From: Fodinisporobacter ferrooxydans
GTDB taxonomy: Bacteria; Bacillota; Bacilli; Tumebacillales; MYW30-H2
Direction of reading: 5' to 3'
DNA: 64,000 nt
Assembly (NCBI RefSeq): GCF_022818495.1
Contig: NZ_CP089291.1
Coordinates: 248,001 to 312,000 of the forward strand
A program made the translations under genes and the position numbers. The notes below the pieces were generated by a model that saw only the letters and a program-made list of their open reading frames with translations, made no database searches and was not told the DNA's origin. Each line of letters opens with the position of its first letter. The first letter of the stretch is position 1. Shown here piece after piece: positions 16,478 to 36,086 of this stretch.

Positions 16478-18088
16478 CTATTCATTGCGACTTTTCTGAT
16501 AGACCAAGTTACCGCCGATATAGGTTTCTTCCACTTGAACCTCGTCAATTTGCTCCGGACTAACCTTTAGAATATCCTGGTCTAGCACCGTGAAGTCCGC
16601 ATAGTACCCTGGTTTAAGCTGCCCCACATCAGGAATTCCCGTAATTTGCTGGGCAACCCGGGTATAAAGCATGATCGCGGTAGACAAATCTACTCGCTGT
16701 TCCTGACCTGTATCTGTCCCATCATGCGCCATGCGTGTGACAGCAGACTTAAGTCCGACAAACGGATTCACCGGATCGGCCCATGCAGTCCCCGGTGCAT
16801 CCGAAGAAAAAGCGATCTTTACTCCAGCCTGCAACAGAGATTGAAAGGGATAAGAACGTTTCGTCCGATCTCTACCTAAGTTATTCAAATAGCTCTCAAT
16901 TTCCGCATATAAGAAGATCGGTTGAGTTACGATTCCGATCCCCGTTTCGGCCAAGCGGCGGATTGCTTCATTTGTAGGCAATGCAGCATGCTCGATCCGA
17001 ATCGATGGAGCGTCCGAAAGCCAGCTTTTTCTTCCGTAAAACGTATCGACAATCAAATCAATTGCTTGTTCACCCATTGCATGCACGACTAATTGGACCT
17101 CGTGCTGTTCGGCAAACTCGGCTGCCTCCAACAACTCCTGCTTGGATGTCGTGGAAATTCCATAATTTTCGCTTTCCCCTAAAAACGGCAGATTGACCCA
17201 AGCGGTTCGTCCGGACACACTGCCATCTGCGAACAGCTTTACACCCCCAACGTGAATGGGATTTTCAGCATGTTTTTTGGCAACGCTTAATACGGGCTGC
17301 TTCTTTATATCCTCCCATAAATAGTAAAGAACACTTCGCTGCCGGAGTCCTTTTTCACGGGCTGCTTCATATATAGTAAAATAATCGATGGGCTCCATTC
17401 TTGCCATAAGATCGGTTATCGCTGTGATGCCATGTGCCAGAAGTTTTGGACTTAGCTCAGCCAGAGCGGCAGCGTTATCTTCAAGTGTTCTGGTTGGCAT
17501 GACCGTAAATACTAAGTCCTTTGCATTTTCTCGTAAGGTGCCCGTTAACTCACCGTTTGCGTCTTTATCAATTTGCCCGCCTGACGGATTTGGCGTGTCT
17601 TTTTCTATCCCGGCCATTTTTAGTGCCAGACTATTCACAACAGCGATATGTCCACATGTACGTGTCACAATAACGGGAACATCGCTAGCGGCTTGATCCA
17701 AATCCCAACGTGTAGGAGCTCGTCCTTCTAACAACTTCCCTTCATCGTACCCCCAACCCTGGATCCAGGCATCCGGGCCTTGAAATTCTCGCCGTTTTCG
17801 TATTTGTTCAAGCAAACCCGCAATGGAACTGACGATTGGAGGGGAACACGCAATGTGCTTTGCTGCATCTGCCAGATACAATGGATGCAAATGAGCATCG
17901 ATGAATCCCGGAAGCACGCGGCGACCATGAAGATCTATACAATTCCCCTCCATCCCTTCAAGATCTGCTTGCTCTCCAATCCACACGATCCGTCCATCGC
18001 GTACCACCATGGCATTTGCATACGGTTGCTCAGGATTGGACGTAAAAATCCGCCCATTAAAAAAAGTATACTGTCCCACTTTATTCAT
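16478..18088 (-). CDS. TIM-barrel amidohydrolase, YtcJ/N-substituted formamide deformylase-like
   Basis: About 536 residues. Metal-site landmarks of the YtcJ-like amidohydrolase family are visible: GFIDAHLHPLYLA near the N-terminus, GGVKLFADGSVSGRTAW in the middle, VVHAMGEQAID, IRIEHAALP, and FSSDAPGTAWADPVNPF near the C-terminus, followed by LKPGYYADFTVLD. Such enzymes hydrolyse formamide or amide bonds; the substrate is unknown. ATG 18088 has GGGAGG twelve bases upstream; GTG 18121 is an alternative. It is the first gene of a three-gene operon with a near-perfect sigma-54 promoter 140 bases upstream. Confidence 0.85.
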   Translation of the reverse strand: MNKVGQYTFFNGRIFTSNPEQPYANAMVVRDGRIVWIGEQADLEGMEGNCIDLHGRRVLPGFIDAHLHPLYLADAAKHIACSPPIVSSIAGLLEQIRKRREFQGPDAWIQGWGYDEGKLLEGRAPTRWDLDQAASDVPVIVTRTCGHIAVVNSLALKMAGIEKDTPNPSGGQIDKDANGELTGTLRENAKDLVFTVMPTRTLEDNAAALAELSPKLLAHGITAITDLMARMEPIDYFTIYEAAREKGLRQRSVLYYLWEDIKKQPVLSVAKKHAENPIHVGGVKLFADGSVSGRTAWVNLPFLGESENYGISTTSKQELLEAAEFAEQHEVQLVVHAMGEQAIDLIVDTFYGRKSWLSDAPSIRIEHAALPTNEAIRRLAETGIGIVTQPIFLYAEIESYLNNLGRDRTKRSYPFQSLLQAGVKIAFSSDAPGTAWADPVNPFVGLKSAVTRMAHDGTDTGQEQRVDLSTAIMLYTRVAQQITGIPDVGQLKPGYYADFTVLDQDILKVSPEQIDEVQVEETYIGGNLVYQKSRNE

Positions 18089-18260
18089 ACGTATCGGTTT
18101 CCTCCCACTATTCTTTGACACATCAATGGTCTGAGTTTATTTCATCTACCATTCTCTCTGAATTCCACCTTTATGAAATTGCTTTCATTCATTTCTATTA
18201 TTGTCTCTATTTCGCGTACCAACCCCATGATTTTGAATGTATATTTTTGAGCATTTGATT

Positions 18261-18278
18261 AAGCAAGATACGTGCCAA
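18261..18278 (-). promoter_or_regulatory. Sigma-54 (-24/-12) promoter of the amidohydrolase operon
   Basis: The minus strand reads TTGGCACGTATCTTGCTT, a perfect fit to TTGGCACGNNNNTTGCTT. It is correctly oriented, about 140-170 bases upstream of the amidohydrolase start. Expression should depend on SigL and an activator, most simply the enhancer-binding protein encoded at 10635-12026. Confidence 0.88.
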
Positions 18279-18441
18279 TTTGTAATATTACGTTTATTTT
18301 TACCACTTTACTTATGCCCTGCATAATCAAATAGTTGAATGCTCAATCGATTTGAAACGTGTTTCATTTAAATGAGATTTTTTTATTTTTCTAATATATA
18401 AACTGACTTGAGTACATAATTTGACTTCAATCACTCTAATT

Positions 18442-18481
18442 GGGGGTAAAAAATTTCACCCTGATTGTGAAAATTTTTTTA
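18442..18481. promoter_or_regulatory. Candidate enhancer sites of the sigma-54 operon
   Basis: A 22-base imperfect palindrome with arms GGGGGTAAAA and TTTCACCCTG around two A residues differs at four positions from the perfect palindrome at 10599. A second degenerate GTGAAAA/TTTTTAC element follows at 18466. They lie about 165-200 bases upstream of the -24 box, the normal position for upstream activating sequences. Nothing else was recognised in 18122-18785. Confidence 0.55.
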
Positions 18482-18785
18482 CCTTTTTTTAAAAAAACCG
18501 TTTGTGTTATTGAAAATCGGCACAGCAAACGCTTACATATTCGCTATAACAAGATCGAAACAGCTTTATTTGAAGATTTGTAACCATATTTGTATACATT
18601 AGAAACATCTCATTATAAGTTCGTGTTCACAAATTGGCGAAGTACAACACAAGAAGTGCGAAATTGAAGCACGAAAAATCCGACAGAGTGTACGTGTTTG
18701 ATACATGAGTAAGGAGCTTTTGGGGATTCGGCAAAGCAATCCGCCGTATAGTTTTGACTACTTTTTGAACATCCTCTGTAAACAA

Positions 18786-18815
18786 ACAAAAAAAGTAAGC
18801 TTGAAGTGCCTACTT
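18786..18815 (-). terminator. Terminator overlapping the AraC fragment stop
   Basis: On the minus strand AAGTAGGC pairs with GCTTACTT (one wobble) around ACTTCAA and is followed by a T-run (TTTTTTTG). It overlaps the stop codon of the AraC-type fragment. Confidence 0.7.
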
Positions 18816-19166
18816 TCTTCCATTCTTCCGGTATGTTTTGGGTGTGGCAGCGAACGTTTCATTAAATAATTTGCTGAAATATTGCGAATTATTAAATCCT
18901 ACCATTAATGCAATTTCAGTGATGTGAAGATTCGAATTTTTAAGTAAATGGCATGCTTCTTCCAATCGTTTTGACGTAATGGCTTCATTTATGATAGTTC
19001 CTGTTTCTTTCTTAAAGGTACGCATTAGATGCACACGTGTGACAAAAAATTCATCGGCAATTTGGCTGATATCGATTGGATTCATGAAATTCACGGATAT
19101 ATAATGTAACACCTTGACGGATAACGATTCATTTAAATACACATCAGGAAATACGATGCGTAACAC
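18810..19166 (-). pseudogene. AraC-family regulator, C-terminal DNA-binding half only
   Basis: About 105 residues match the AraC double helix-turn-helix: IDISQIADEFFVTRVHLMRTFKKETG, then LEEACHLLKNSNLHITEIALMVGFNNSQYFSKLF and ATPKTYRKNGRK at the end. The usual N-terminal sensor domain (150-180 residues) is absent. The frame runs only a few codons past the domain before the sequence turns into a differently oriented gene fragment near 19150. It is therefore a truncated gene, unless the bare domain is used as a stand-alone regulator like MarA/SoxS. Confidence 0.75.
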
Positions 19167-19590
19167 GACAGTGATCGTGAAAAACCCATTTAAGGTGAAT
19201 CCAACCGATCCAGATCAGGTAACAGTAGATTTGGCTGTACCAGCCCAGTATATTGATGGTCAAATTTATGTTCCGATTCGGTCTATTATTGATGCGGCTA
19301 ACAATCTTTACGGTTTTGGTACTGTATTTAAGTGGTTCCCTATTCAGCAAGAATTAAACTTCGATTATGGTGTTAATTACGATTTCCAAACTGGAAAAGA
19401 CACATACACTTGGTATACTCAGACGTCAAAATTGCCTGGGGAAATACGTATATACCATGGAGAATTAATGGTTCCGGTTTACGATACTACCCAACCGCAA
19501 TATCGGTACGTTGGATGGTCTTCCACTTGGGATGCACAAAACAGGGTACTTACTCTAAATATTGGATACCCGGAAACACCCATGGCATGA
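19157..19590 (+). pseudogene. Stalk/copper-amine-oxidase-like domain protein, N-terminus missing
   Basis: About 140 residues. VTVDLAVPAQYIDGQIYVPIRSIIDAANNL resembles the copper amine oxidase N-terminal-like (stalk) repeat common in secreted Bacillales proteins. A second strand-rich segment ends in VGWSSTWDAQNRVLTLNIG. There is no signal peptide and no ribosome site, and the apparent N-terminus runs antisense into the AraC fragment, so the 5' part has been lost at a junction near 19150. A strong terminator follows. Confidence 0.6.
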
Positions 19591-19632
19591 TCATCTATTA
19601 CTAAAAATCAACATTAAAGACTAATCTATTTC

Positions 19633-19659
19633 GGCGACAATTATTTGTCGCCTTTTTTT
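19633..19659 (+). terminator. Strong rho-independent terminator
   Basis: GGCGACAA and TTGTCGCC form a perfect 8-bp stem with a TTAT loop, followed by seven T residues, 42 bases past the stalk-domain stop codon. The remainder of 19660-20100 has no recognisable gene. Confidence 0.9.
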
Positions 19660-20111
19660 ATTTTTGGGGATTTTATCGACAATAACGGTGACGAGCCTTT
19701 ATAACGCCCGTCATTTCTAGTAGTATACCGAAAATCGGTGTTAATACAACTTTGATCGAGTTTGAACATGGTTTATTGGCTATCAACTGCATCAAACGAA
19801 TGTTTCTAAACAGTCTCATTATGATGGTGTAACCGTCAAGTACTTTTGAGCAGGCCACCTTTCTTTGTTCCCCACACCGCTTCCCCCTGAAGCTAGAATT
19901 ACCAGTTCAATGATAGCGTAATAGGAAGAGTATGGGGAATTTTGTTCATTCTTATTTTGGGAATCTGTTGATTCTAGTTTACCGGTCACAGATAGTTATT
20001 GATACATTAATATTAGTTCGAACTGCTGCTAAAATCGTCCTCTTTATCCAGTAACTTAACAATATTCTTTTATTCAGACGCTAATTATAATAATGTGTGA
20101 GGAAAGGTAGG

Positions 20112-20441
20112 ATGATGAAGTTGAAGAAATGGAAATTACTTTTTTTCCTATATCTCTTGTCAACATTAGTGGTTTTACTGAATTTATTGTCTCACTTTTC
20201 AATTAGCGGAACCATAGGACTTGTGTCTGGCGTAATTGGGTTACTTGGAGTGTATGGATTTTGTTGGAATAAACCGCTCTTTAGCAGAACCTTTTGGAGA
20301 AATTTCTTTGCCATTTTTACACTGGTAGGCTTAGGAAGTATTTACGTTGACATTGTTCACCTCCATCAAACATACGTTTCTAAGCCACATCCTGTATTTA
20401 TAGGTAGCATTATAGGTGTGTTAGCGGGACTAATCATGTGA
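20112..20441 (+). CDS. Small membrane protein of unknown function
   Basis: About 109 residues from tandem ATGs at 20112/20115, with GGAAAGG upstream. Four hydrophobic segments are evident: LLFFLYLLSTLVVLLNLL, GLVSGVIGLLGVYGF, FFAIFTLVGLGSIYVDIV and VFIGSIIGVLAGLIM. I do not recognise a family. It is followed by its own terminator and lies in accessory DNA. Confidence 0.6.
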   Translation: MMKLKKWKLLFFLYLLSTLVVLLNLLSHFSISGTIGLVSGVIGLLGVYGFCWNKPLFSRTFWRNFFAIFTLVGLGSIYVDIVHLHQTYVSKPHPVFIGSIIGVLAGLIM

Positions 20442-20514
20442 TACTTCGTTTTACATGCGTTATATCTTTATGCTTTTAGGAAGGATGCTATATGGGCGAA
20501 ATAAGGAACATTGG

Positions 20515-20542
20515 CGGCAACTCGTTTGTCGTTTTTTTTTTT
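20515..20542 (+). terminator. Terminator of the small membrane protein gene
   Basis: CGGCAA and TTGTCG pair (one wobble) around CTCGT, followed by more than ten T residues. Confidence 0.8.
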
Positions 20543-21516
20543 GCGGATGCCGACTGTCAATAAGCGAAAGGTACACTTTATATCCACCATACGCTTAATT
20601 TTTGGTAAACGAGGTTAGGACAATATTGTCGTGACGATATTTTTGTCTGGTCACTATCGGGGCAATCTTCTAAACTGGGACAAACGTTGAGGACTTTTTA
20701 TGCAACATCATATGTGTTTCTGGTCGAACCCAGCTAGAGTATCGCAGAAAAATCCACCAAAACGTAACTCGGCAGCGATCAAAACCCGAACGTTCCAGAT
20801 CAAATGGTCATCCGTGTCCGTTAGGTCAAAAATGTCTCATTCCTATTATATATCTTTATCTTTTTATCTTTTAAAAGAATATATAACGTAAGTACTTTCT
20901 AGGACATTGGAGGGATTCGACCAGAACATTATTTACGTTCAATACGATTAAATAGTTGCGTCACCGACCCGTAGCCGCCACTTTGCAAGAGCAACCCCAT
21001 GTTTATTTCGCTATACGCCTAGTGGCATGTACAGATAGAAATGAAATCTCGATACCTCAACGTTACCAGTTACAACCAATGCCCCCTATATTGCACACAA
21101 GTATTTTCGTTCAAAATGGTAAATTATCCAAAAATTTTTTTGCGGTTCTGGAAACTTCGGAGGGCGTAACTGGACAATACGAACATAGCCGTACTTTAAA
21201 TGTCCAATCGTTAGACGCTATTTTTATGTGCATTCACTAGTCGTCACCAGACGACCCCATGACTCCCACGTTTACAGAGAGCAAATCGTTCAATTTTGAA
21301 AACCCACCAAAAGTTTTACGACAGATTTCAAAAATTCGTTATCAGATAATTCTACTGTTACTCAAGTTATAACCACAACGAACTACATATCCCTATATCC
21401 TGTCATGGTATATTTTTTGCATTGAAAGTTGATTTCGAATTTTGGCATGATGTGTGTAATGGACTTTAGCGTCTGGGTAATTAGTAAAGCAAAATTACAT
21501 TAGGTAGGTGAATTGT
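20543..21516. other. Gene-free stretch
   Basis: About 970 bases in which I see no coding region with a ribosome site or family resemblance, no RNA gene and no clear repeat. Short open frames here look random. Confidence 0.5.
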
Positions 21517-22176
21517 TTGAAATTAAGTTTGTTACGTAGCAAAGCCCGAAGTATATTAAAAGGAAAGTGGTTTTCGTTTGTTGGTTATACTATTTTACTG
21601 CTAATTCTTAATACGACTGTGCCCAAGCTTTTAGAAAAATTGTATCTTTATAAGGGTAATTTGGGAATGGATACTGTACTTTCCTTTCTTTATGAAGTCT
21701 TAGTTATCGGTGCTTTAACTTTAGGCAGTAATTCTTTATATTTAAAAATTACCAAGGATGAAAAAGCTTCGGTTAGAACTATTTTCTCATTTTTTTCAAA
21801 TTTCAACAGTTATAAGAAAGCAATTATTTATAATTTGCTAATGGGTCTTTACTTCATCCTATGGTCACTACTTTTGATTATCCCAGGCATTATTAAAAGT
21901 TTTTCCTATGCGATGTCTTCTTATATCCTTATTGAAGAGCCTCATTTAACAGCGAACCAAGCGATTACAAAAAGCCGTCAAATGATGGACGGTTATAAAT
22001 GGAAGCTATTCTGCCTATACCTTTCCTTCGCAGGATGGTTTATCTTATCAATTCTAACAGTTGGAATTGGATTCCTGTGGCTTATTCCTTATTATCAGAC
22101 AAGTATCGCCTGTTTCTATAATGATATTAAAGATAAATACAAAGTAACAGAGCCTAATAGTTCAGATGAATTATAA
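21517..22176 (+). CDS. DUF975-family integral membrane protein
   Basis: About 219 residues, starting at TTG 21517 with TAGGTAGG eight bases upstream (MKLSLLRSKARSILKGKW). The N-terminal R.KAR..L.GKW, the glycine-proline turn LLIIPGIIKSFSYAMSSYIL, the TANQAITKSRQMMDGYKWKLF segment and the C-terminal helix with LWLIPYYQTSIACFYNDI are the hallmarks of DUF975 proteins. Their function is unknown; some lie in peptide-antibiotic clusters. Five or six membrane segments are visible. No functional partners are adjacent. Confidence 0.85.
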   Translation: MKLSLLRSKARSILKGKWFSFVGYTILLLILNTTVPKLLEKLYLYKGNLGMDTVLSFLYEVLVIGALTLGSNSLYLKITKDEKASVRTIFSFFSNFNSYKKAIIYNLLMGLYFILWSLLLIIPGIIKSFSYAMSSYILIEEPHLTANQAITKSRQMMDGYKWKLFCLYLSFAGWFILSILTVGIGFLWLIPYYQTSIACFYNDIKDKYKVTEPNSSDEL

Positions 22177-22273
22177 ATAGATCAATCAAGTAGGGGAGAG
22201 TGACTAACTCCCTTACCCGGTTGAGAAAGAGTAGGTAGAGGCAAAATGATTGGTGGATGATGTCTAATTACAT

Positions 22274-22546
22274 TTAATGGAATATTTGAATTAACCGAAG
22301 CACCGAATGAAGTGTTATGAAAAAGCCGCCTAAAAACAAGAACACAGATAAAGTCGAAAGTAAATGCAAAATAAACAAACTTGGGATGTCTGATATCATA
22401 TTTAGAAAAAATATTGCAATATTCGATAAGACAGACTTTACACGACAATACCTTCCACGAAACTCCCGATAATCCAACGCCATTAAAAACACTGCTAAAG
22501 CCATCAAAAAAATACCAACAAAAAAACCGATTACTGTATTAAGCAA
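22274..22546 (-). CDS. Putative small membrane protein
   Basis: A 90-residue frame from TTG 22546 with GGAG ten bases upstream. Two hydrophobic regions are seen: VIGFFVGIFLMALAVFLMAL and LFILHLLSTLSVFLFLGGFF. No family is recognised; it is supported only by ribosome site and hydrophobic pattern. Confidence 0.4.
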   Translation of the reverse strand: MLNTVIGFFVGIFLMALAVFLMALDYREFRGRYCRVKSVLSNIAIFFLNMISDIPSLFILHLLSTLSVFLFLGGFFITLHSVLRLIQIFH

Positions 22547-22667
22547 AATTTTTTACTCCATTTCATTTCCACAGTTTTCAAAGCGGTTATTTCGGCTGAT
22601 GTGTGAATGATTTTTTCGCCAGCGACATCGTAAACACCTTTGCTCCATTATTGTTGCACGACTTACC

Positions 22668-22698
22668 GAAAAAGACGGCAGCCATTTTAAGCTACCGT
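22668..22698 (-). terminator. Terminator of the 22.7-23.1 kb gene
   Basis: On the minus strand ACGGTAGC pairs with GCTGCCGT (one wobble) around an 8-base loop, followed by CTTTTTC. It begins ten bases past the stop codon of the membrane protein gene. Confidence 0.75.
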
Positions 22699-22708
22699 TC
22701 TAGTTAAA

Positions 22709-23107
22709 TTACTTCTGTCTACGTCGTTTGGCTATTGTATCAAATACAAAATTTACCGCAGCCGCAATAAAAAAGAATATAATACTTTTATCAAAGTCGT
22801 CAGGGAAATAAGTCCAAATTGCATAACCTGCTGAAAAGATGATTGACGCTATGACTGATCCGATTTTACTTCTACTGCTTCGCAAACTGTACAATGCCAA
22901 AGTCAACATGTAGGTAATAAATATCAGTGTCTTAACATAATATCCATTCCAATTGATTGGAACGAAATACGCAATAAAGCCAAAAACAATAGCAAAGAGG
23001 ATAAAAGTAAGTAACCCTGATAATTTCCCCTGTTTTCTTAAAAAGAAAATATTCCAAGTTAGAAATATCAATAAGAAAAGCGTTAGGATGAATGTATTGA
23101 CTGCCAC
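22709..23107 (-). CDS. Membrane protein of unknown function
   Basis: A 132-residue protein from GTG 23107 (AAAAGGGG upstream). Four hydrophobic segments are visible: FILTLFLLIFLTWNIFFL, LLTFILFAIVFGFIAYFV, VKTLIFITYMLTLALYSL and IIFFFIAAAVNFVF, with a basic tail TIAKRRRQK. It could be a small immunity-like or accessory protein, but nothing identifies it. It has its own terminator. Confidence 0.6.
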   Translation of the reverse strand: MAVNTFILTLFLLIFLTWNIFFLRKQGKLSGLLTFILFAIVFGFIAYFVPINWNGYYVKTLIFITYMLTLALYSLRSSRSKIGSVIASIIFSAGYAIWTYFPDDFDKSIIFFFIAAAVNFVFDTIAKRRRQK

Positions 23108-23372
23108 GTTTATTCCCCTTTTGCCTCGTATTCACCTCATTTTTAATGAAGATTGACCGAAAATCAATGTGCAATATTTAGCTGAACGTATGTGATAAGT
23201 AACTGCACGTGAAATTCGTAATTCTATACTTTTGTTCGTTACAGTAACAAATTGAACACATAAAATTTGAATGAAAGAATATATGCAAAACCATACATAA
23301 ATGACCGCCAACGTTTTTCTGCAAATTGAAACTCTGAGCCTTCCTATGTCCATACAGCCGAAACAATGATTC

Positions 23373-24629
23373 CTAGTATATCGATTCAAAAATCCACTTA
23401 ATATTTTTATATTTTGGTATAATAAGATCATCGAAAGATGATCGGAGAGATACCCATGGCACGTTCCAAGAAAGCAGCACTCTTGTTAAGTGAAGAAGAT
23501 AAACAATACCTTCAAAAAATCTGTAATTCTCGAACCGAACAGGTGCGCCGTGTGGAGCGTGCAACGATTCTTCTTCACTATGCCGATGGGATGAGTTCGC
23601 CTCAGATTGCCAAACGGATGGGAATTAGCGTACCTAACACAGATACATGCATTAAGAAAGCACTCCTATTCGGTGTGAGACAAGCATTGGAAGATTTTAA
23701 ACGTTCCGGTCGTCCGGTGGAATTAACACCGGAAGCCCGAGCGTGGATTGTGTCTCTCGCTTGTCAAAAACCTAAGGAACTGGGGTACTCATATGAATTG
23801 TGGACCATGAGCCTGCTTGCCCAACACGTTCGCCAACATGCAATGGCAGAAGGTCATCCCAGCGCAGCGCGAATGGCGAAAGGAACCGTTTCGCGCATCC
23901 TTTCGTCTCATGACCTGAAACCGCATAAAGTGTCGTATTACGTAGAGCGCAGAGATCCTGATTTCGATACCAAACGTGCGCAGGTGCTGCATGTCTATCA
24001 ACAGGTCGAATGGAAGATCGAAAATGACAACTTTCAAATGTCCTGTGATGTTGTTGTCTCATACGATGAAAAACCTGGGATCCAAGCCATCGGGACAACT
24101 TCGCTTGACTTGCCGCCGGTTCCCGGTGAGCATCCGACGATTTCCCGAGATTATGAGTATGTGCGCCATGGTACAGTGACGCTCATGGCGGCTATCGATC
24201 TTGTTAGCGGCGAAGTACTCGGATCGGTTGTGGATCGCCATCGCAGTCGGGAATTTGTTGACTTTCTAAAAATGCTTGATACCCATTATGAACCAGACTT
24301 ACGAATTCAAGTTGTTTTAGATAATCATTCCGCCCATACATCCAAGGAGACAAGAGCGTACTTAGATACGGTTCCCAATCGCTTCGAGTTCGTGTTCACT
24401 CCCAAGCATGGTTCTTGGCTCAACGTGATTGAAACTTTCTTTTCCAAAATGTCGCGCTCTTTCCTTCGCGGAATTCGGGTTGCGTCCAAGGAAGAATTAA
24501 AAGAACGGATTGAACTCTACTTGAAAGAAATCAATGCCAATCCGATTCCGTTTCGTTGGAAATATGGCATGGAATCTGCCGCAAAGTAGCATGTTCAATT
24601 TAAAGCTTATTTTTGAATCGATCTACTAG
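23373..24629 (+). mobile_element. IS630-type insertion sequence, apparently complete
   Basis: Terminal inverted repeats flank one transposase gene: CTAGTATATCGATTCAAAAA at 23373 and the inverse CTAGTAGATCGATTCAAAAA ending at 24629, differing at one position. Total length is about 1.26 kb. IS630 elements target TA, and TA dinucleotides occur at both ends, so exact boundaries may lie 2-6 bases inside the stated ones. Confidence 0.85.
23456..24589 (+). CDS. IS630-family transposase
   Basis: A 377-residue DDE transposase starting at ATG 23456 (CGGAGAG eight bases upstream). The N-terminal half holds a winged helix (MSSPQIAKRMGISVPNTDTC). The catalytic triad is visible as the aspartate in VVSYDEKPGIQ, the aspartate in VVLDNHSAHTSKETR and the glutamate in HGSWLNVIETFFSKM. 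The length is normal and no interruption is seen, so the element may be active. Its GC content is higher than the flanking AT-rich DNA. Confidence 0.95.
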   Translation: MARSKKAALLLSEEDKQYLQKICNSRTEQVRRVERATILLHYADGMSSPQIAKRMGISVPNTDTCIKKALLFGVRQALEDFKRSGRPVELTPEARAWIVSLACQKPKELGYSYELWTMSLLAQHVRQHAMAEGHPSAARMAKGTVSRILSSHDLKPHKVSYYVERRDPDFDTKRAQVLHVYQQVEWKIENDNFQMSCDVVVSYDEKPGIQAIGTTSLDLPPVPGEHPTISRDYEYVRHGTVTLMAAIDLVSGEVLGSVVDRHRSREFVDFLKMLDTHYEPDLRIQVVLDNHSAHTSKETRAYLDTVPNRFEFVFTPKHGSWLNVIETFFSKMSRSFLRGIRVASKEELKERIELYLKEINANPIPFRWKYGMESAAK

Positions 24630-25400
24630 TTTACTTTAAAAATTTCTGCGGCGTTTTCAAAACTTCAGCGTATTTTTTATCTTCAACGTACTATAACTCC
24701 AATAACGTCCACCAATTATTTTTACCATCTACGTTACAAATCGCCTGTTCAAATCGGATAAAAGGGTGATTAGACCACTAGCAACATCCAGCTATGAATC
24801 TTCTTGACCCTGGTTCATGTGATGACATTCGTCGACCAAAACAGCGATTCGTACTAAAGTGATACTGTAGGAAGTTATATCCATGTATCGAATTGGCGAC
24901 AAACGACCAATCCGTGTACTTACTGATACTACTGTTACAAATGGAGAAAAACGTCAATGACGGACACGCAAACACGAATGACAGTTTGTATCCCGTATGC
25001 AATCGCTATGGTCTGTCTGGTTGACATTATGGGTAAACGTAGGGGGACGTATGGAACGACTAAAAGGGCTTCGCCCGGCAATTTTGCTTCGCAATCTTGC
25101 CCCATAATGACCAAGCCATTTTCCATTTCACCAGAAACAAACAGAATCAGAAAAGGTACTTCCCTGAATAGGTGTTTGCCTGTCCCAGACAGGTGAACAT
25201 CCCCGAACGGAGTGAGGGCATCATTTAATCTTTTTAACATTTGCCCCAAAACGTAACGAACGTCCTAAATGTCCTAATAGTCTACTACATTTCCAGAAAC
25301 AAAAATACTATCCCGTATAAATAAGAGACGTACACGGGCACAATGCCGAAACCACTTGGTACGACTGGGTTTGTGGCACTTTTCGATAAAATAATAGGTT
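24630..25400. other. Gene-free stretch upstream of the replication gene
   Basis: No coding region is supported. It contains the palindrome at 25173-25198 and leads into the direct repeats at 25401. It may hold plasmid replication or partition sites. Confidence 0.4.
25173..25198. repeat. Inverted repeat in the plasmid-like module
   Basis: TGTT-TG-CCTGTC and GACAGG-TG-AACA flank CCA: the arms pair over ten positions with only the inner TG unpaired. No T-run follows. Its place 280 bases upstream of a RepL-like gene would suit a replication or copy-control site. Confidence 0.45.
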
Positions 25401-25438
25401 CATCTACGTGAGGGTTAACACTCATTTACGTGAAGGTG
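25401..25438. repeat. Two 16-base direct repeats, 22-base period (iteron-like)
   Basis: CATCTACGTGAGGGTT (25401) and CATTTACGTGAAGGTG (25423) match at 13 of 16 positions and start 22 bases apart, two helical turns. They end 38 bases before the start of the RepL-like gene, as iterons of a replication initiator would. Only two copies are seen. Confidence 0.5.
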
Positions 25439-25476
25439 TTTTTCAATAATGCGAATAACCTGCGGAGGGGAAATAC

Positions 25477-26046
25477 ATGGGAGTTGTTCTTGATGAACGT
25501 TCTGGACAGTGGTTTGACGATGAAACAGGAGAAATTATCAACGTGCTAGCAGCTCGAAACGGGAGTCTTGAAAATAATACTGACAAACCTGTGCTAGCTG
25601 TGGTAGAAGTACCTGCAAATGGCAAAGTTAAGGCAACCAAAAAAGGAAACAAGCTCCAGAAAATTAAGAATGAACCATCATTTACAATGGTATTCAGTTA
25701 TCCCGATATACTGGAATATCTTTTGACGGGACAACTAACAGTGAATGAGAGGGCGTTTTTATTCACACTTCTGTTTTTCACAGAATACGGAAAAACTCAG
25801 ATTATGGTTCCTGATGCCAATGGGAAACCGGAACGACTCATGATGTCTCGTGCAGGACAAATCATGGGATGGAAGCACAGCCAAACTACAAAAACAGTAG
25901 TTGAAAGTTTAGAGAAAAAGAGACTCCTGAAAGTTGAGCAGATTGGGAAGACGAAATATATCGAATTGAATCCAAGAATTTTCTTCAAAGGAAGTACAAG
26001 CCTTCGCAATAAACAGATTAAATTTTATGAAAGTGAAAGTATTTGA
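25477..26046 (+). CDS. RepL-like plasmid replication protein
   Basis: A 189-residue protein with a good ribosome site (GGAGGGG). The C-terminal 130 residues look like the winged-helix replication protein family RepL: LTVNERAFLFTLLFFTEYG, then IMGWKHSQTTKTVVESLEKK, and the closing KTKYIELNPRIFFKG (compare the family's usual Y.iNP.iifkG end). The N-terminal 60 residues are polar. Upstream repeats and a downstream ssDNA-binding-like gene support a replication role. It marks an integrated plasmid or a plasmid-derived integrative element. Confidence 0.65.
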   Translation: MGVVLDERSGQWFDDETGEIINVLAARNGSLENNTDKPVLAVVEVPANGKVKATKKGNKLQKIKNEPSFTMVFSYPDILEYLLTGQLTVNERAFLFTLLFFTEYGKTQIMVPDANGKPERLMMSRAGQIMGWKHSQTTKTVVESLEKKRLLKVEQIGKTKYIELNPRIFFKGSTSLRNKQIKFYESESI

Positions 26047-26190
26047 CCAGAATCATAAATTACTGTTTAACAATCCAGAACACAATTTTTCCTACCTCAT
26101 TTAGCGTTACAAATGCTCATTTAAAAACAGATATAGGGGTGCAAGGTCAATCCGAACATGAAAATAAATCAACCAATAGGGGGAATCATA

Positions 26191-26769
26191 ATGATCGCAA
26201 TCAATAATTATTTCTTAGCAGAAGGAACGGAAGCACGTCAAATAAATGATGGACAGCAGCCAAAACGTTCTAGAATACAATACATCAATTTAAAAGATGG
26301 TCAATTTGTTTGTGGATATATACTGACAACTGATTTCAAAATGTATATTTGCCATGACGATTATTCTAAGAAAATTAAGCAACACATTTGCAAGAATCCT
26401 AAGGACAGACCAGACATGAACTGTTTGTCTTGTATACACAATGTGAAACGTGAAAAAAGGACAATTGTTCCATTCTTCAACGTTGATACACAACAGGTTG
26501 AAATTCTTGCTGCTAAAACCAATATCATGAGAATTATTTACGCCTTTATTGATGAATATGACGATGAAGCTATGACGACTCCAGTCGTCCTTAGCCGTTC
26601 TGGTACTGCTAAAGATACTCGATATACAATCATGCCTGCCCGTGTAAAACCTGCTGAACAATTATTGTTTGAAAAACCGATGGATATTATGTTAGATAAT
26701 AAATTTTATCAAAATATATTGGTTATTCCTGAGGATGACTACATTCGTAAGTTACTCGGAATCCAATAA
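26191..26769 (+). CDS. Gp32-like single-stranded DNA-binding protein candidate
   Basis: About 192 residues from ATG 26191 (AGGGGG eight bases upstream; an earlier ATG at 26158 lacks one). A central zinc-ribbon-like set of C and H residues (ICHDDYSKK, QHICKNPKDRPDMNCLSC) is followed by VPFFNVDTQQVEIL and RYTIMPARV, a layout I associate with phage and plasmid Gp32-like OB-fold proteins. It would coat ssDNA during replication of the element. The family assignment is by pattern only. Confidence 0.5.
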   Translation: MIAINNYFLAEGTEARQINDGQQPKRSRIQYINLKDGQFVCGYILTTDFKMYICHDDYSKKIKQHICKNPKDRPDMNCLSCIHNVKREKRTIVPFFNVDTQQVEILAAKTNIMRIIYAFIDEYDDEAMTTPVVLSRSGTAKDTRYTIMPARVKPAEQLLFEKPMDIMLDNKFYQNILVIPEDDYIRKLLGIQ

Positions 26770-26781
26770 TCTTACAATAAA

Positions 26782-26800
26782 GCCCCCTTATCTTGGGGGC
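26782..26800. terminator. Hairpin between convergent genes
   Basis: GCCCCC and GGGGGC flank TTATCTT. It lies 13 bases past the ssDNA-binding gene stop and 9 bases from the integrase stop, so it may end transcripts from both sides. T-runs are short. Confidence 0.6.
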
Positions 26801-26808
26801 ATACATAT

Positions 26809-27852
26809 TCATCGCAATATTTTCCGTTCTTTATTAAGTTTCCCAGAAATCTGATTTAGCGGCGAAAACTGTTGGTGTTGCTTCATCAGTGAATTTTTTG
26901 ACAAATGTGTATAACGCAAAACCATTCGTAAATCACTGTGTCCCAACATCATTTGCAAGTGCCGCAAATCGCCGCCAGCCTTCAGAAACATCGTTGCAGC
27001 CGTATGACGAAAGAGATGCGGATGTACTCTGGCTTGAATATCTGCACTTTAAGCATATTCTTTCAGCCGATGCCGAAAATGATTTTGATTTAATTGTTCT
27101 CCGTAATTTGTCAAGAATATATAGTCGGTGTCAAACTCCTCGGTTTCCTTTACCAATTCCCTAAGTAGACCCACTGTCTTCTTTTGTAAAGGAACCGATC
27201 TTGAACGTCTGTTTTTTGCTACCTCACCACGAACTGTAACCATACCAGATTCAAAATCAATATCCGATTTCTTTAACGATAATGCTTCGTTAATCCGTAA
27301 AAATGTATCCAAGAGCAAGTTCATTAACACGTAATCCCGAAACCCAGAATAACGCCTTTGATTTGGCGAAGCCAGCAAACGTTTGAGTTCGTCAACTGTA
27401 AGAATGATTATTTCATTTTCTGGTTCCTCGACATTTTTTATTCCTTCCATTGGATCAGTGCCAATTAACCCTTCCATTTTCAAGAAACGAAAAAAAGTCC
27501 GTAACGTCTTAAGGCGTGTATTGATCGTCACTGGAGACAATCCAACACGCTTTTCGGAATCTGGCTTATCCTTGTTACCTTCAAATCGTATCTTTTCCTG
27601 AAGCATCCAAACGATATAGTTTCGGATAATGCTTGTATTTATGTTGCGAACATCCCGACCGATTCCCATTAGATCAAGGTATTCGACTAAAAATCCATAA
27701 TTTAAACGATACTGTTCAAGTGTATTTTTTGCTCTGCCTTCCGCAATCTTTGCATGATAATAACGTTCGAATAACGTATCCAAATTATACTCATATATTT
27801 TATTCTCGTTTACTCTTTCACTTTTGATACGTTGCCCTGATCGTCTATCCAT
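26809..27852 (-). pseudogene. Tyrosine recombinase/integrase split by an in-frame TAA
   Basis: A single 347-codon frame encodes an XerC/D-like recombinase: SAM-like N-terminal domain, catalytic arginine in LLDTFLRINEALSL, then TAA at 27049-27051 after RLKEYA, followed in frame by VHPHLFRHTAATMF, MLGHSDLRMVLRYTHLS with the remaining catalytic H, R, H and Y residues. One substitution, probably AAA to TAA, kills it: the first part lacks most of the active site. It borders the RepL module, so it was probably that element's integrase. Confidence 0.88.
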
Positions 27853-28035
27853 AATGAAAAACGCTCCTTTATCCGATTTTTATCTCGAATATCGAAGCGT
27901 TTAGGCTTTCTTTGGCGGCGCAGAAAGGTACTGTACCTTGTACGAATGGGAAGCTGTACCCTGTTCGCTTTCTATCGTACTGTCCACGTTCAGTCTACGT
28001 CCCGAAAACGTTGATATTATGCGGTTTTTACGTTC

Positions 28036-28085
28036 TGGTCGGAATGACAGGATTTGAACCTGCGACCTCTACCTCCCCAAGGTAC
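28036..28085 (-). other. 3' half of a tRNA-Pro gene, candidate attachment-site scar
   Basis: On the minus strand the 3' half of a tRNA is readable: anticodon loop TTGGGGA (GGG anticodon), part of the anticodon stem, variable region AGGTC, T-arm GCAGGTTCAAATCCTGT, acceptor CATTCCG and encoded ACCA. The D-arm and 5' acceptor are absent upstream, so this is not a working tRNA. Integrases of mobile elements commonly use tRNA 3' ends, leaving such half copies. It lies between two decayed recombinase genes. Confidence 0.75.
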
Positions 28086-28263
28086 TGGGGGCAATGTTTT
28101 TTAATACTGAATAATCCTGAAAACGTTGCTATATCAAGTGTTTGCGATGTTCTTAGTATGTTCTATTATGATACTTTATTTTAAAAAATGTTGAAATTTG
28201 CCCCCAAAATGCCCCCAACATTCTAAGCATGACCATATAAAGTGCGGTTGCATCTATTTAACT

Positions 28264-29244
28264 TCACACCCCCAAATACCGAGCCGAACTATCTGTTGGC
28301 CTAGCGTGCAAATAACGTCCAGTAGTAGCAACACTTGCATGACCCAGCGTGGATTGAACCAAGTGAATCGGTGCTCCACGATCAAGCGAATGAGAAGCGT
28401 GTGCGTGTCGTAACCAATGAGCGCTTACGTTATCGCCTAATCCTGCGCGTTTGGCAGCTGCTTTGACAATTCGATGCACTTGAGAAGGGCTAAGTTGGCC
28501 TTCCTTCTTCCGGCTCACAAAGATTGGATCATCGAGTTCAGCTTCTTCACGCAATTTCACAAGTTCCTTTCAGGTATCGGCAGATAATAAGATTGTCCGA
28601 GTCTTTGCCCCTTTACCAAACACCGTAATCTGTCCTGCATCGTCCCGTTCCTGAACGTCCCGCTATTTTAGTCCGCATATTTCAGATACACGAAGTCCAC
28701 CAGCATACAGTAATAACAACAGGATAGAATTTCGCGTATTCGTTTCAAGCGCCAGCATTCGGTGTACTTCTTTTTGCGACAGAATCCGTTCCGCTAATGT
28801 ATTCTTTTGCGCTGGCAGTTTGATCGGTGCTGCTACGTTCACTGACAGAACCCCAATCTCCTTATGAGCGAATGCGAACAGGGACTTTACAGAGGATAGG
28901 ATTCTCGCTTGCGTTGCCGGGGCTAATTCTACTAAACTATCTGCGAACATTTGCATGTCTAGGATGGTGACTGTATCAAGTGATTTATTTACGAATTTGA
29001 AAAAACGTTTTGCATCGGCTTTGTACGAACGCTTTGTATGTTTGCTGCGTCCATGCAACCAGAGTTGAATGATTCGTTCGTCTGGCGATTGATGGACAAC
29101 CTCTATTTTGTGTGCAGTTGAAACTGTGATTTCATTGGATAATCTAATCACTCCAATGCAAGATAATGTTTCTTCTCTTGCATCCTCTTTGAGGAGATCC
29201 AAAACTATCTGTGCTTTGAATGCTGCAGTGTAATGTTTTCTCAT
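28264..29244 (-). pseudogene. Tyrosine recombinase with two stops, fused to an IS3 OrfA fragment
   Basis: The frame begins with MRKHYTAAFKAQIVLDLLKE, the N-terminus of IS3-family OrfA transposases, then changes near codon 25 into a tyrosine recombinase (SKHTKRSYKADAKRFFKF core-binding part, LYAGGLRVSEICGLK with the catalytic arginine). In-frame TAG (28663-28665) and TGA (28570-28572) both occur where tryptophan is expected (LK-stop-RD and ADT-stop-KEL), consistent with two G-to-A changes. The rest (HWLRHAHASHSL, LGHASVATTGRYLHA) carries the other catalytic residues. It is not functional as it stands. Confidence 0.82.
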
Positions 29245-29385
29245 ACGCCTATTATAGCTTATATGACCCCTTTCAAACTGTTCGATTTCTTGGATCCACT
29301 ATAGCCAGTACCTATGGAAAGTCAAAGAAAATGCAATGAGAATCTTGCAGGAAAACTATCATTTAACTTTCCATAGTCATTATCT

Positions 29386-30398
29386 CTATAACCTATATTG
29401 TTTTAGAAATTCTGTCAGTTCCTTCTTCTGTTCCATACCGTATTTCTTAATACCCGTCATGTTGTCCGCAGTACTTTCTTCAATTGCTTTGCGCATAAAT
29501 TCCGGGTTGGTCTTTGCATAACGTTCGGTCGTTAAAACAGAAGCATGTCCAAGGAAATCCCTAATGTAAATAAGATTTACCCCGCTCATTAGCAAATGTG
29601 TGGCTTTGGAATGCCTCATGTCGTGAACCCTTGGATATCTGCCATTTGGAAGCTTTGAAATTCCTGCCTTGGCATATATGTTTTGTATGGTTGATTTTGC
29701 AGAATGCCTGGTGTATTTTCCACCGTCCGACGATGGAAAAAAATAACCATTGCTATTCGCACTGAATGACATCCTTTTAGCGTAATCCCTGCAGGTTTCT
29801 GCCATGGAATGTGACATAGGAACAAATCGGCTTTTTCCCTTTTTTGATTTTTCTATAAAAAGGATACCCTGAGCCAGATCGACGTCCTGACACTTCAAAG
29901 TCAACGCTTCAGATATACGCAAACCACAGCTGTATAAGAGTCGCACAAGAACAGGATAAATAAATGTGTAGGTCGGATAACGAGATATCACTGGCAAGTG
30001 GTCTGAAACATCAAAAATGGATATAATCTCCGAATGACTAAATATATATATGGCACAAAACTGCTGCTTTCGTTATGTCGGCTAATTTCTGGATAAATGT
30101 AGGCTTCAATCCCTCTGTTTTTTAAGAAGCCAGCAAACTGCCGGAGCATTCCAACCCGTTTGGATTGGGTTGAATAAGCCTCATGCGGTCGTTTGGCACA
30201 GATCTCTTCCACCATGCACTTTGTCAGTACAGGTTCCTTGACATGGTATCTGTTTAGCTGATGGTTCGTGAAGCGGAGTGTATATAGCATGGAATCCTCG
30301 TACTTCAGCCCACATCCGCGTTTATAGATGATGAATTCCAGGAACAGCTTCTTAAAGGGGCCTTCCTCAAATGGAATGGAAATCGTTTTATTTTCCAT
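29386..30398 (-). pseudogene. Tyrosine recombinase frameshifted at an AT repeat
   Basis: The N-terminal core-binding domain (from ATG 30398) and the C-terminal catalytic domain (LLYSCGLRISEALTL, VHDMRHSKATHLL, FLGHASVLTTERYAK) lie in different frames. The change occurs at the run ATATATATAT at 30042-30051: reading past it in the other frame restores IFSHSEIISIFDVSDHLPVI, which joins the two parts. Loss or gain of one or two bases in the run would restore a protein of about 337 residues. Its start overlaps the stop of the preceding recombinase gene, as in recombinase-in-trio (RIT) elements. Confidence 0.82.
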
Positions 30399-31008
30399 AA
30401 GGCACCTCCAGTGATACTTTCCGCAACTGCTCCGTATTCATCCACAGGTAGCGGTTTGTCACTTTCGTGCTGCTGTGTCCCAGTATGCTCGTAACGACTG
30501 GCAGGGACGTTCCATTTTCGAGAAGTCTGGAGGACAGGCTGTGTCTCATGGCATGCATTCCATGCCGTTTCCCTTCTGTATAGATGCTTGTTTTACCCAT
30601 ATATGAATTAAGGATGCGGTATAAAGCACTGCTAGCTGAAAACGCCTCATAAGGTGCTCGCATCTTTATGAATAGACTGTTACAGGACGTATCGGGTCTC
30701 CCGTTTTTTAGATAATCCGCAAGCGCATAACGGATGCCTTCTGTCATGGGAAGAATCTGATGATTGCCCGTTTTCTGTTGAAGAAAGGATATTTCGTCTC
30801 TTTCCCAATGGATATCAGAAATTTGCAGATGGCAGATATCACCAGCTCGCATTCCCAAAGATATGGCTATTAATAGGATGGCATAATCCCTTTTTCCTAT
30901 TGCGGTGCTGCAGTCTACAACCCGAAGAATTTCGGCTGTCTCATCCGGAGTATAGTAAGAATTGCATGTAGCTTGCACTTTTGCAATTTTATTGTTGCTA
31001 TGATTCAT
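30388..31008 (-). pseudogene. Tyrosine recombinase catalytic domain, N-terminally truncated
   Basis: 206 residues containing only the catalytic domain: SLGMRAGDICHLQISDI with the first arginine, KRHGMHAMRHSLSSRLLE, ILGHSSTKVTNRYLWMNTEQL. The usual 100-200-residue N-terminal domain is absent, and a stop codon lies a dozen codons upstream of ATG 31008. Its last codons overlap the next recombinase start (ATGGAAAATAA), a coupling typical of RIT elements. Nothing recognisable lies in 31009-31235. Confidence 0.7.
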
Positions 31009-31235
31009 AAAGTGAAACTTGAATGCAGGTGTATTTTGTTGAGGTTAGCTATCGGATAAAATGATCGCTTTGTGAGAAAAAAGAAATTAATTTTGCAATT
31101 TCCAGTTCTATCAGGGTGGAATTATATGTTTACTGCACGGGGACAATCAATAGTAAGCTAAAAATTGCCCGGGGAATTCAGCTTTGGTATCTCAACCAGC
31201 TCGGAACGAACGGTCCCCGGACAGCAAGAATCTAA

Positions 31236-31943
31236 TCAAGCACCAAAATATGCAGATAAAATGGTACTGTCGTTTTTAAACAGTGCAGGTTCGCCAGACC
31301 TTGTAATTTCCCCGTGATCCATAAAATAGACTTGTGAAGCAATTTCGAGGGCATTCATTGCATTTTGTTCGGCCAACAAAATCGTTAGTTTTTCTTCATT
31401 TTGAATTTTGACCAATGATTCATAAACGGTTTGAACGAGCAATGGACTCAATCCTAAGGATGGTTCATCCAAAATTAAAACCTTTGGAAAGGACATGAGC
31501 GCTCGGCCAATCACCATCATTTGCTGCTGCCCGCCGCTGAGAGAACCAGCCACATGATGTAATTTAGCTTTCAAGTCGGGAAAAACCTCAAGTATACATT
31601 CAAGCCGGTTTTTTAATTGACGGCGAACCGTCTTATTGATGGCACCCAACTCAAGGTTTTCAAGGACAGTTAACGTGTACAATACACCTCTTCCCTCTGG
31701 TACAAGAGAAATTCCTGCCACGGATACACGATGCGCAGGAAGTGTTGATAATTCTACGCCATTCAAAGAAATTCTGCCTGAGGTCAGCGGAATCATACGG
31801 CAAATCGCCCGTATGAGTGTTGTCTTTCCGGCGCCATTTGGCCCGAGTAATGCTGTAGTTTGCCCACTTGGTATGGTTAATGAAATATTGTTTAGGATTT
31901 TTACTTCTCCATATCCTGCATATACGGACTCAATACTAAGCAT
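31236..31943 (-). CDS. livF: Branched-chain-amino-acid-type ABC transporter ATPase LivF
   Basis: A 235-residue ATPase: Walker A GPNGAGKTTLIRAI, signature LSGGQQQMMVIGRAL, Walker B VLILDEPSLGLSPLLV, and the LivF-typical LVPEGRGVLYTLTVLENLELGA. ATG 31943 overlaps the livG stop by 8 bases, with GGAGGAG upstream, so the two are translationally coupled. It is the last gene of livJHMGF. The importer class takes up branched-chain amino acids, amides, urea or aromatic acids; the substrate here is unknown. Confidence 0.92.
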   Translation of the reverse strand: MLSIESVYAGYGEVKILNNISLTIPSGQTTALLGPNGAGKTTLIRAICRMIPLTSGRISLNGVELSTLPAHRVSVAGISLVPEGRGVLYTLTVLENLELGAINKTVRRQLKNRLECILEVFPDLKAKLHHVAGSLSGGQQQMMVIGRALMSFPKVLILDEPSLGLSPLLVQTVYESLVKIQNEEKLTILLAEQNAMNALEIASQVYFMDHGEITRSGEPALFKNDSTILSAYFGA

Positions 31944-32673
31944 TTTGTGCCACTCCTCCTTTTCCAATATACGATTCGATTACAAGAGGATTCGACAACA
32001 CGACATCGGGGAGATCCTGCATTAATACTTTTCCCGTATCTAAGACAAGAAGACGATCCGAAACTGATCGTATGACTTTCACCAGGTGCTCAATTATCAC
32101 AATCGTTAAACCTTGATTTTTTAAGGATCGAATTTTTTTCACCAAATCTTGAATTTCCTCATCTGTCAGACCTGTAAGCACCTCGTCCAAAAATAAAAGT
32201 TTTGGTTGTGTTCCAAGTGCCCGTGCCATATCCAGCACTTTTCTTTGTGCAAAGTTTAATGAAGATGACGGTTCATGAAGAAACGAATGGAGTCCCACCA
32301 AATCCAATATTTCTTCTGCTTTCTGTTCAGCTTCTTTATGGGACATCCCGCGAGTTAAACATGCTACCTTGACATTATCCAGACAATCCAAAGAGTTTAA
32401 GGTTTGTGGATGTTGAAATGTGCGGGCCATCCCCATACGGGAAGACAAAAATAATCGGGATTTTGTAACAGGCTTAGATTCATAAAAAATTTCTCCAGCG
32501 TCCGGTGCGATGACACCCGTGATGACATTGATCGCGGTCGTCTTCCCTGCTCCATTTGGGCCGATTACTCCGAGAATTTCTCCTCGTTGTATATGAAATG
32601 TGATATCCTGTAGCGCTTTTACCCCGCCGAATGTTTTTTGAACCCCTTTGGTTTCCAATATCCAATCACTCAT
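31936..32673 (-). CDS. livG: ABC transporter ATPase LivG
   Basis: A 245-residue ATPase with Walker A GPNGAGKTTAINVITG and the LivG-type ARTFQHPQTLNSLDCLDNV. The signature reads LNFAQRKVLDMARAL rather than LSYGQ, and Walker B is LLFLDEVLTGL rather than LDEPAAGL. This AQRK/DEV variant occurs in a subset of LivG proteins, so it is not evidence of inactivity. It starts 13 bases after livM, with GGGAG upstream. Confidence 0.92.
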   Translation of the reverse strand: MSDWILETKGVQKTFGGVKALQDITFHIQRGEILGVIGPNGAGKTTAINVITGVIAPDAGEIFYESKPVTKSRLFLSSRMGMARTFQHPQTLNSLDCLDNVKVACLTRGMSHKEAEQKAEEILDLVGLHSFLHEPSSSLNFAQRKVLDMARALGTQPKLLFLDEVLTGLTDEEIQDLVKKIRSLKNQGLTIVIIEHLVKVIRSVSDRLLVLDTGKVLMQDLPDVVLSNPLVIESYIGKGGVAQNA

Positions 32674-32685
32674 TTTTTCAACTCC

Positions 32686-33675
32686 CTAAACAACCTCTTT
32701 TGTATTATTCAAGATTTTATTTTTCGAAAAAAAGGCTGGAATTCTAAGCAAAAGATCTAGGACACCTTTTTTTGCAAACAAAACAATTACCATGAGTACC
32801 AAACCAAAGCACGCATTTACATAACCTGCATTTTGAGCGGATAGATCATTCGTGAATATAGTAATTCCCTCAAGTATAGCTGCGCCAATAATCGGGCCAA
32901 AAATAAAATTGCTGCCCCCGATAATAGGAACTACTGCCATATAAGTAGCAAGAGTTAATCCTGTCATATAATTTGGATCCAGAAAGCCAACTGAAAAAGC
33001 GGATAGTATCCCGCCAATCGCTGTAAACGCAGCACTCAAAACAAGAATCAAAAGCTTGATTGTGAACGAGTTGATCCCGATAGATTCCGCCGCAATCGAA
33101 TTGGTTTTAACCGCCTGCAAATAATAACCAAATTTCGTGCGTGGAATAAAATAAAATAAAATGATCAATATCGCCACAAAAATGGCTCCAATAATTGTAT
33201 ACACATAAGGATTCAGAAACTCTAGATTCGCCCAGTTGTCGGAGGAAAACGAAATTTGCAGCCCGTTGGCCCCACCTGTCACAGTGTCAAAATGCAGGAT
33301 AAGACTCAGCAATACTGCTGAAAAAGAAAGTGTGGATAAACTGAAATATGGGCCTTTTAAGCGAAAACTAAAACAACCTATTAGTAATGAAAACAGCACA
33401 GCCGCTAAAACTCCAAACATCCAGCCATAGATCGGATAAATATTGAATTTTTGAAATAGAATGACCGTGGTGTATGCACCAATCGCAGCAAAGGAACTAT
33501 GCCCGAGTGAAATTTCCCCCGCATAATTTGCAATCAGATTCCAGCTGTAGCCCCAAATTGCGTATAAAACAAACGAATTCGTTGCGGAAGGATTCGATTG
33601 CAGGACTGTCCATACTATTAAAAACACAGCCCATCCCAGTACCATCCATATGACCTTGTAGGATTGTCGTTTCAT
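32686..33675 (-). CDS. livM: ABC transporter permease LivM
   Basis: About 329 residues from ATG 33675, which overlaps the livH stop (ATGA). A hydrophobic protein of 8-10 segments with the LivM landmarks YAIWGYSWNLIANYAGEISLGHSSFAAIGAYT, GPYFSLSTLSFSAVL and a GGANGL loop. It pairs with LivH to form the channel. Confidence 0.92.
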   Translation of the reverse strand: MKRQSYKVIWMVLGWAVFLIVWTVLQSNPSATNSFVLYAIWGYSWNLIANYAGEISLGHSSFAAIGAYTTVILFQKFNIYPIYGWMFGVLAAVLFSLLIGCFSFRLKGPYFSLSTLSFSAVLLSLILHFDTVTGGANGLQISFSSDNWANLEFLNPYVYTIIGAIFVAILIILFYFIPRTKFGYYLQAVKTNSIAAESIGINSFTIKLLILVLSAAFTAIGGILSAFSVGFLDPNYMTGLTLATYMAVVPIIGGSNFIFGPIIGAAILEGITIFTNDLSAQNAGYVNACFGLVLMVIVLFAKKGVLDLLLRIPAFFSKNKILNNTKEVV

Positions 33676-34553: not shown

Positions 34554-34583
34554 AATTTCGCCCCATTCTCATTGATATTAAAA

Positions 34584-34608
34584 TGGAGAGCCAGAAGCTC
34601 GCTCTCCA
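34584..34608 (-). terminator. Intercistronic hairpin between livJ and livH
   Basis: Perfect 8-bp arms TGGAGAGC/GCTCTCCA with a 9-base loop and no T-run. Hairpins here commonly protect the abundant binding-protein message or attenuate read-through into the permeases. Confidence 0.6.
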
Positions 34609-34625
34609 CTGTACCCATGCCAACT

Positions 34626-35885: not shown

Positions 35886-36086
35886 GACTGTTCCCCTTTT
35901 CCTTGTTTTTTCTTTTTTCATGTTTTCTTCGCACGTTTTTTTTCCGTGTTTTAACTGCCTTTTCTTAGTTATCTAAGAAAAAACCACCCCCTGAAAATAA
36001 AACGCTTACATGCAACTCATAACTTTCGTTCGGTTCTTTCAAATCTACCTGATTATTCTAATCTATCAATTTCAGTATCCTTCCCA

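Follow-up and report, generated by a model that had tools for sequence, protein, structure and literature searches.

A stretch of the chromosome of Fodinisporobacter ferrooxydans, in which two small genes lie between an insertion sequence and a tyrosine integrase, raises the question of what kind of element left them there. An initial annotation took the stretch for the replication module of a small or integrative plasmid, recently captured by the chromosome. We have analyzed it within the window, the whole 64,000-nucleotide stretch of DNA (bases 248001-312000 of a single contig of 4,856,687 bases, C1), which has a G+C content of 40.3%. In its published description the genome of the strain, MYW30-H2, is given as 4.86 Mb in one contig with a G+C content of 44.2% (PMC11123200). 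We conclude that the region is probably the decayed relic of a tailed phage, or of a compact phage-derived element, of the kind represented by the Bacillus phages vB_BauS_KLEB27-1 (OM654379) and phi18-2 (OR208547). The integrase, its tRNA-derived site and a single-stranded-DNA-binding protein (SSB) point to tailed phages, and it is these that carry the argument for a phage. The plasmid reading of the region thus becomes a phage reading and, as a relic, the region is ordinary.

The coordinates of the features are collected in Table 1. The gene for a wHTH protein and the SSB gene both run rightward and have open reading frames (ORFs). The SSB frame extends from 26158 to 26769, and the start is probably at 26191 rather than 26158 because relatives in IMG/VR align from there. 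The integrase gene opposes these two genes, about 40 bp off, and the hairpin in between is a putative terminator. On the left of the wHTH gene there are about 850 bp with no recognized gene, within which two ORFs have no match in PHROGs, and beyond this lies an IS630-family insertion sequence. The latter is 99.6-99.8% identical to two further copies in the genome, so its insertion is probably recent. No tRNA genes were found in the window by ARAGORN, and the sole Rfam match in 18000-36000 is a miRNA that falls far under its cut-off.

Table 1. Features of the region in window coordinates, from left to right.
Feature	Position	Strand	Remarks
Shared stretch without recognized gene	20545..21036	+	Collinear with C1:2.973-2.974 Mb: 20545-20688 76%, 20779-21036 86%
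IS630-family insertion sequence	23373..24630	+	Transposase ORF 23438-24589; NF033545, 217 bits
Palindrome	25173..25199		Arms 10/12
Two 16-mer copies, TCAT(C/T)TACGTGA(G/A)GGT	25400..25437		Upstream of wHTH gene
wHTH protein, 189 aa	25477..26046	+	Apparent distant relative of phrog_9501 phage family, plasmid-borne wHTH group and RepL
gp32-like phage SSB	26191..26769	+	HxC...CxxC motif; no acidic C-terminal tail, unlike L007-L009
Hairpin GCCCCC/GGGGGC	26782..26800		SSB and integrase genes converge here; for 26770-26812, -14.2/-13.3 kcal/mol on the two strands
Tyrosine integrase, KLEB27-1/phi18-2 type	26809..27852	-	One in-frame stop at 27046-27048
183-nt arm, integrase to tRNA core	27853..28035		One repeat copy at 28000-28017
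Attachment-site core	28036..28084	-	49/49 nt identical to 3' half, with CCA, of tRNA-Pro(GGG)
Arm beyond core	28085..28221		Second repeat copy at 28115-28132; three (T/C)TGGGGGCA motifs at 28085, 28199 and 28210

The integrase is full length but for its single in-frame stop. The parts on either side both match PF00589 (3.4e-21 and 3e-14), and the stop severs the section containing HxxR...Y, the catalytic motif of tyrosine integrases. The gene is a pseudogene. The initial annotation was therefore right to call the integrase broken, and the gene lies just outside the interval 25173-26800 to which the module had been assigned. When DNA 24631-28300 was searched against 50,697 phage records 97 were matched, and the top two matches are integrases, those of phi18-2 (69.7% over 347 bp, E = 9e-34) and KLEB27-1 (66.8%, E = 8e-9); among the best 20 of the 97 matches, 18 fall on the tRNA core. 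At the protein level the identity before and after the stop is 52% and 70% to KLEB27-1, and 42% and 71% to phi18-2. The integrase of Paenibacillus phage Tripp (Halcyonevirus, NC_028930) is distant, with 31% identity along 64 aa downstream of the stop and no match upstream of it. Further tyrosine recombinase ORFs form a cluster on the minus strand at 28264-31008, comprising a split one (28663-29244 plus 28264-28560) and those at 29386-29997 and 30388-31008. Amid these the ORF at 29988-30398 has no family match, and the start of the split recombinase matches an IS3-OrfA-like ORF at locus L039 (71% over 21 aa).

The core of the attachment site lies 74 kb from the intact tRNA-Pro(GGG) gene at C1:349948-350024. 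The repeat GAAAACGTTG(A/C)TAT is present on either side of the core, and there are three GGGGGCA motifs on one side of it, a fourth falling in the hairpin, at 26793. In both KLEB27-1 and phi18-2 the sequence immediately upstream of the integrase resembles, by eye, the 3' half of a tRNA. It is placed and oriented like the core in the window and has TATATCAACGTT close by. With the repeat flanking the core on both sides, together with the GGGGGCA motifs, the site and its arms look like an unrecombined attP. Both arms around the tRNA core thus look phage-derived, unlike what simple integration would leave. Tandem insertion, stacked elements or rearrangement might each account for the presence of an attP-like site away from the tRNA gene. 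Stacked islands might fill the 74 kb to the intact tRNA-Pro gene and the 54 kb to a partial copy at C1:221784; the genes in these intervals are by eye largely those of metabolism and transport.

The site could instead be a hybrid junction of two stacked elements on tRNA-Pro, with the arm 28085-28221 coming from the neighboring integrase (28264-29244) and the arm 27853-28035 from the integrase of the window. This would fit with the neighboring split integrase ending just 42 nt from the former arm, with a related arm and decayed core at C1:4.1047 Mb that have no tyrosine integrase found near, and with another broken integrase flanking the intact tRNA-Pro gene. However, the repeat occurs on both sides of the core and similar sequence flanks the core of KLEB27-1 in the same way, suggesting that one phage supplied both arms. 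We consider the hybrid unlikely, though a serious possibility, and it is compatible with a phage relic.

There are other partial copies of tRNA-Pro, at C1:221784-221829 and, decayed, at C1:4104642. The partial copies at C1:276036 (the core) and 221784, taken with an integrase-like gene at locus L040, suggest that tRNA-Pro(GGG) has been used repeatedly as an insertion site. The gene at L040 (C1:348680-349887) is in two frames and ends beside the intact tRNA-Pro(GGG). At C1:4104642-4104803 (L036) the decayed core has an arm that is 68% similar to window 28057-28218, with no tyrosine integrase within the 20 kb examined.

The SSB was proposed in the initial annotation as a Gp32-like candidate, and this has stood up. 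It matches phrog_14578 (1.6e-7) and is 47-51% identical to proteins of three IMG/VR contigs, and a second scan, made with the SSB alignment, gave these three contigs again. There the relatives adjoin genes that by eye resemble those for primase, sigma factor and DNA polymerase I. The SSB profile was searched against five records, of which three, including the source contig, were matched. Its other two matches are the SSB annotated in phage Tripp (E = 1.2e-8) and, weakly, a DNA-binding protein of KLEB27-1 (E = 0.004) that belongs to phrog_20486; phi18-2 and 268TH002 gave none. The Tripp protein also belongs to phrog_20486, while L008, a relative of the window SSB, belongs to phrog_14578 with a faint match to phrog_20486 (E = 0.045), and also matches the SSB of Dp-1 (8e-4). 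By eye the zinc-type motif HxC...CxxC, which has a role in gp32, is present in the window SSB, in L007-L009 and in the Tripp and KLEB27-1 proteins. Searching with the protein against named plasmids and named phages gave no match. Among 200 relatives, those listed sharing no more than the order or class, the SSB is found by protein in one, which is the present genome. By profile it is found in 5 of 398 genomes, one being the present genome and two having internal stops; a scan of genome contigs with the alignment gave none in 70 candidate stretches. The AlphaFold2 model of the SSB has a pLDDT of 31.6, too low for use.

The wHTH protein had been called RepL-like. It has no match to the RepL model of Pfam, where nothing is above cut-off (best E 0.019, a DUF), and none in NCBIfam at E<=0.05. 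Nor does any protein of this genome match PF05732 at E<=0.001, compared with 15 of 151 genomes that have such a match. Two distant relatives, L051 and L045, score 18.8 and 12.8 bits against the Pfam RepL model, for which the cut-off is 20.3 bits. A distant relation to genuine plasmid RepL is suggested by profile-profile comparison only, at 95% with five sequences (62 columns), 71-83% with three and 19-32% with the single sequence, the similarity being limited to the wHTH and the stretch after it. In both the RepL of small plasmids and the window protein the wHTH is followed by an N-P-x5-G motif, and there is D-x-x-(T/S)-G-E near the N terminus.

Relatives of the wHTH protein are found in 3 of 200 genomes by protein search and 11 of 398 by profile, this genome included in each. 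Nearest, at 34-36% identity, are a pair of genes in Aneurinibacillus sp. Ricciae_BoGa-3, and both lie directly before a gene that by eye resembles terminase, with phage-type genes near. Using five or three sequences of the window family, profile comparison gives 97-98% with members of phrog_9501 and 96-98% with a group comprising L046, L048, L049 and L053, against 0.6-4.4% for a control with two other HTH proteins of KLEB27-1 and phi18-2. For the lone window sequence the values are 7-11% for phrog_9501, 10% for the L049 group and 0.1-0.9% for the control. Proteins of phrog_9501, which are weaker relatives, are also encoded in phi18-2, KLEB27-1 and Tripp; in Tripp the gene precedes that for the terminase small subunit by four genes. 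On the plasmid side, there are matches of L049 to 58 plasmid records, of which Priestia accounts for 49, and in the 12 rows listed the annotation is mostly helix-turn-helix protein, with one Rep protein. The proteins of this Priestia group are about 220-250 aa long, compared with 189 aa for that of the window.

At the profile level the comparisons link the phage family phrog_9501 with the plasmid-borne group of L049 and with the RepL of plasmids. The wHTH family appears on this basis to be common to phages and plasmids, RepL included, and hence the wHTH gene alone cannot decide between phage and plasmid. BLAST of the protein against named phages gave no match, and scans of viral contigs with the protein and with its alignment found no relatives. 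The wHTH profile found nothing in five phage records including KLEB27-1 and phi18-2, which counts against a close relation to them. The AlphaFold2 model (pLDDT 44.2) has matches listed that are mostly winged-helix, none at E<=0.001. Sequence searches of the PDB gave E values of 0.82 and 0.34 at best. A phage transcription regulator seems somewhat more likely than a replication initiator, because two relatives directly precede a terminase-like gene and others are located where the early genes end.

Had the region been a captured or integrative plasmid, the RepL-like protein would start replication at the upstream repeats and the integrase would have inserted the plasmid at tRNA-Pro. The profile similarity to RepL with its common N-P-x5-G motif, the nearness of the wHTH family to the plasmid-matching group of L049 and the two close repeats upstream of the wHTH gene are all consistent with this. 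Yet neither the wHTH nor the SSB protein matches any of 72,556 plasmid records (PLSDB) at E<=0.01, DNA 24631-26160 matches no plasmid record, PF05732 is absent from the genome, and the integrase and SSB are of phage type. Moreover there is no perfect DnaA box (TTATNCACA) between the insertion sequence and the wHTH gene; a box with a single mismatch lies at 25450 and a perfect one inside the wHTH gene. A plasmid origin is therefore set aside as improbable, with some weight left to it by the occurrence of the wider wHTH family on plasmids. A recent capture is likewise unsupported, given the broken integrase, the IS630 to the left and another decayed relative elsewhere in the genome.

The upstream repeats had been described as iteron-like with a 22-base period. 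There are exactly two copies (25400-25415 and 25422-25437), identical at 14 of 16 positions and spaced by 22 bp, so that an iteron array is ruled out. Such a pair arises in 1.7% of 300 dinucleotide shuffles of 24631-25476, and there are four repeat clusters of comparable quality in the whole window. The pair is possibly an operator or initiator-binding site. The palindrome noted earlier does exist, but it is ordinary, since one of its quality occurs in 25.7% of the shuffles of the same region and 35 times in the window.

The three genes lie side by side with little space between them, a hairpin separates those for SSB and integrase, the wHTH and SSB frames are open and no structural genes are recognized nearby. 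This might indicate a mini-element or phage satellite, in which a compact unit of attP-integrase-SSB-wHTH replicated itself and was packaged via a helper phage. Against it, no gene for a primase or for interference with packaging was recognized among the ORFs (by eye, with some scanned), and neither the wHTH profile nor the integrase is matched in the approximately 3.2 kb around the SSB matches in four other genomes, two of which have internal stops. The gene order is likewise not found in the three IMG/VR contigs, and deletion of a larger prophage explains the compactness equally well. We think a satellite of this kind improbable. The same low likelihood attaches to a compact phage-derived mini-replicon, a satellite keeping only its integration and replication genes, namely the attP-integrase, the SSB and a RepL-like initiator with its repeats. 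Were that so, the initiator would come from a wHTH family common to phages and plasmids.

We return then to the relic of a tailed phage. Judging from the architecture, the integrase would have recombined the tRNA-Pro gene of the host with an attP that contains the 3' half of tRNA-Pro(GGG). The gp32-like SSB would bind along the single-stranded DNA of phage forks. The wHTH DNA-binding protein would be the second phage-type gene remaining besides the SSB. A nonsense codon broke the integrase and IS630 landed on the left, so that the element should no longer excise alone and has presumably lost its mobility. All of the pieces probably derive from one phage. KLEB27-1 is one phage with relatives of all three window genes, those of the SSB and wHTH only distant. 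KLEB27-1 and phi18-2 are phages of 64-65 kb with all genes, in which the SSB and wHTH genes are far from the integrase and the tRNA cores, by eye, are others. KLEB27-1 is likely to be temperate because it has an integrase, and it is the best phage match of 268TH002, which is described as temperate in PMC9476937. An AimR lysis-lysogeny receptor is annotated in phi18-2. The phages that PMC10674732 itself reports are lytic.

Some observations weigh against a phage. The three genes that are adjacent here are far apart in KLEB27-1 (gp31, gp55 and gp95), and the wHTH family is equally near (96-98%) to the plasmid-matching group of L049. In addition no structural, packaging or lysis genes were recognized by eye in shortened translations of the ORFs of 216-352 kb, so a phage is deduced from few pieces.

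A second relic lies at 2.97 Mb. At C1:2972225-2972347 the terminal part of an SSB gene is preserved, which is 54-56% identical to the window SSB and by eye stops at the same point. A tRNA-Ser-like half follows, with which the four tRNA-Ser genes compared have runs of no more than 20 nt in common. The collinear stretch listed in Table 1 lies near it, and in the whole genome the pieces of this stretch match only the 2.97 Mb neighborhood; the two relics are therefore probably sister elements. This suggests that the relic in the window once extended left as far as 20545-21036. Beside the relic at 2.97 Mb, positions 10510-11166 of locus L042 (C1:2972510-2973166) contain by eye a CopG-like ORF together with a broken one, which we take to resemble a BrnT/BrnA toxin-antitoxin pair. 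A repeat of about 170 bp at window 18614-18785 recurs at 84-85% in two places, C1:234 kb and 2.968 Mb, and there is a further, short match at 244.7 kb.
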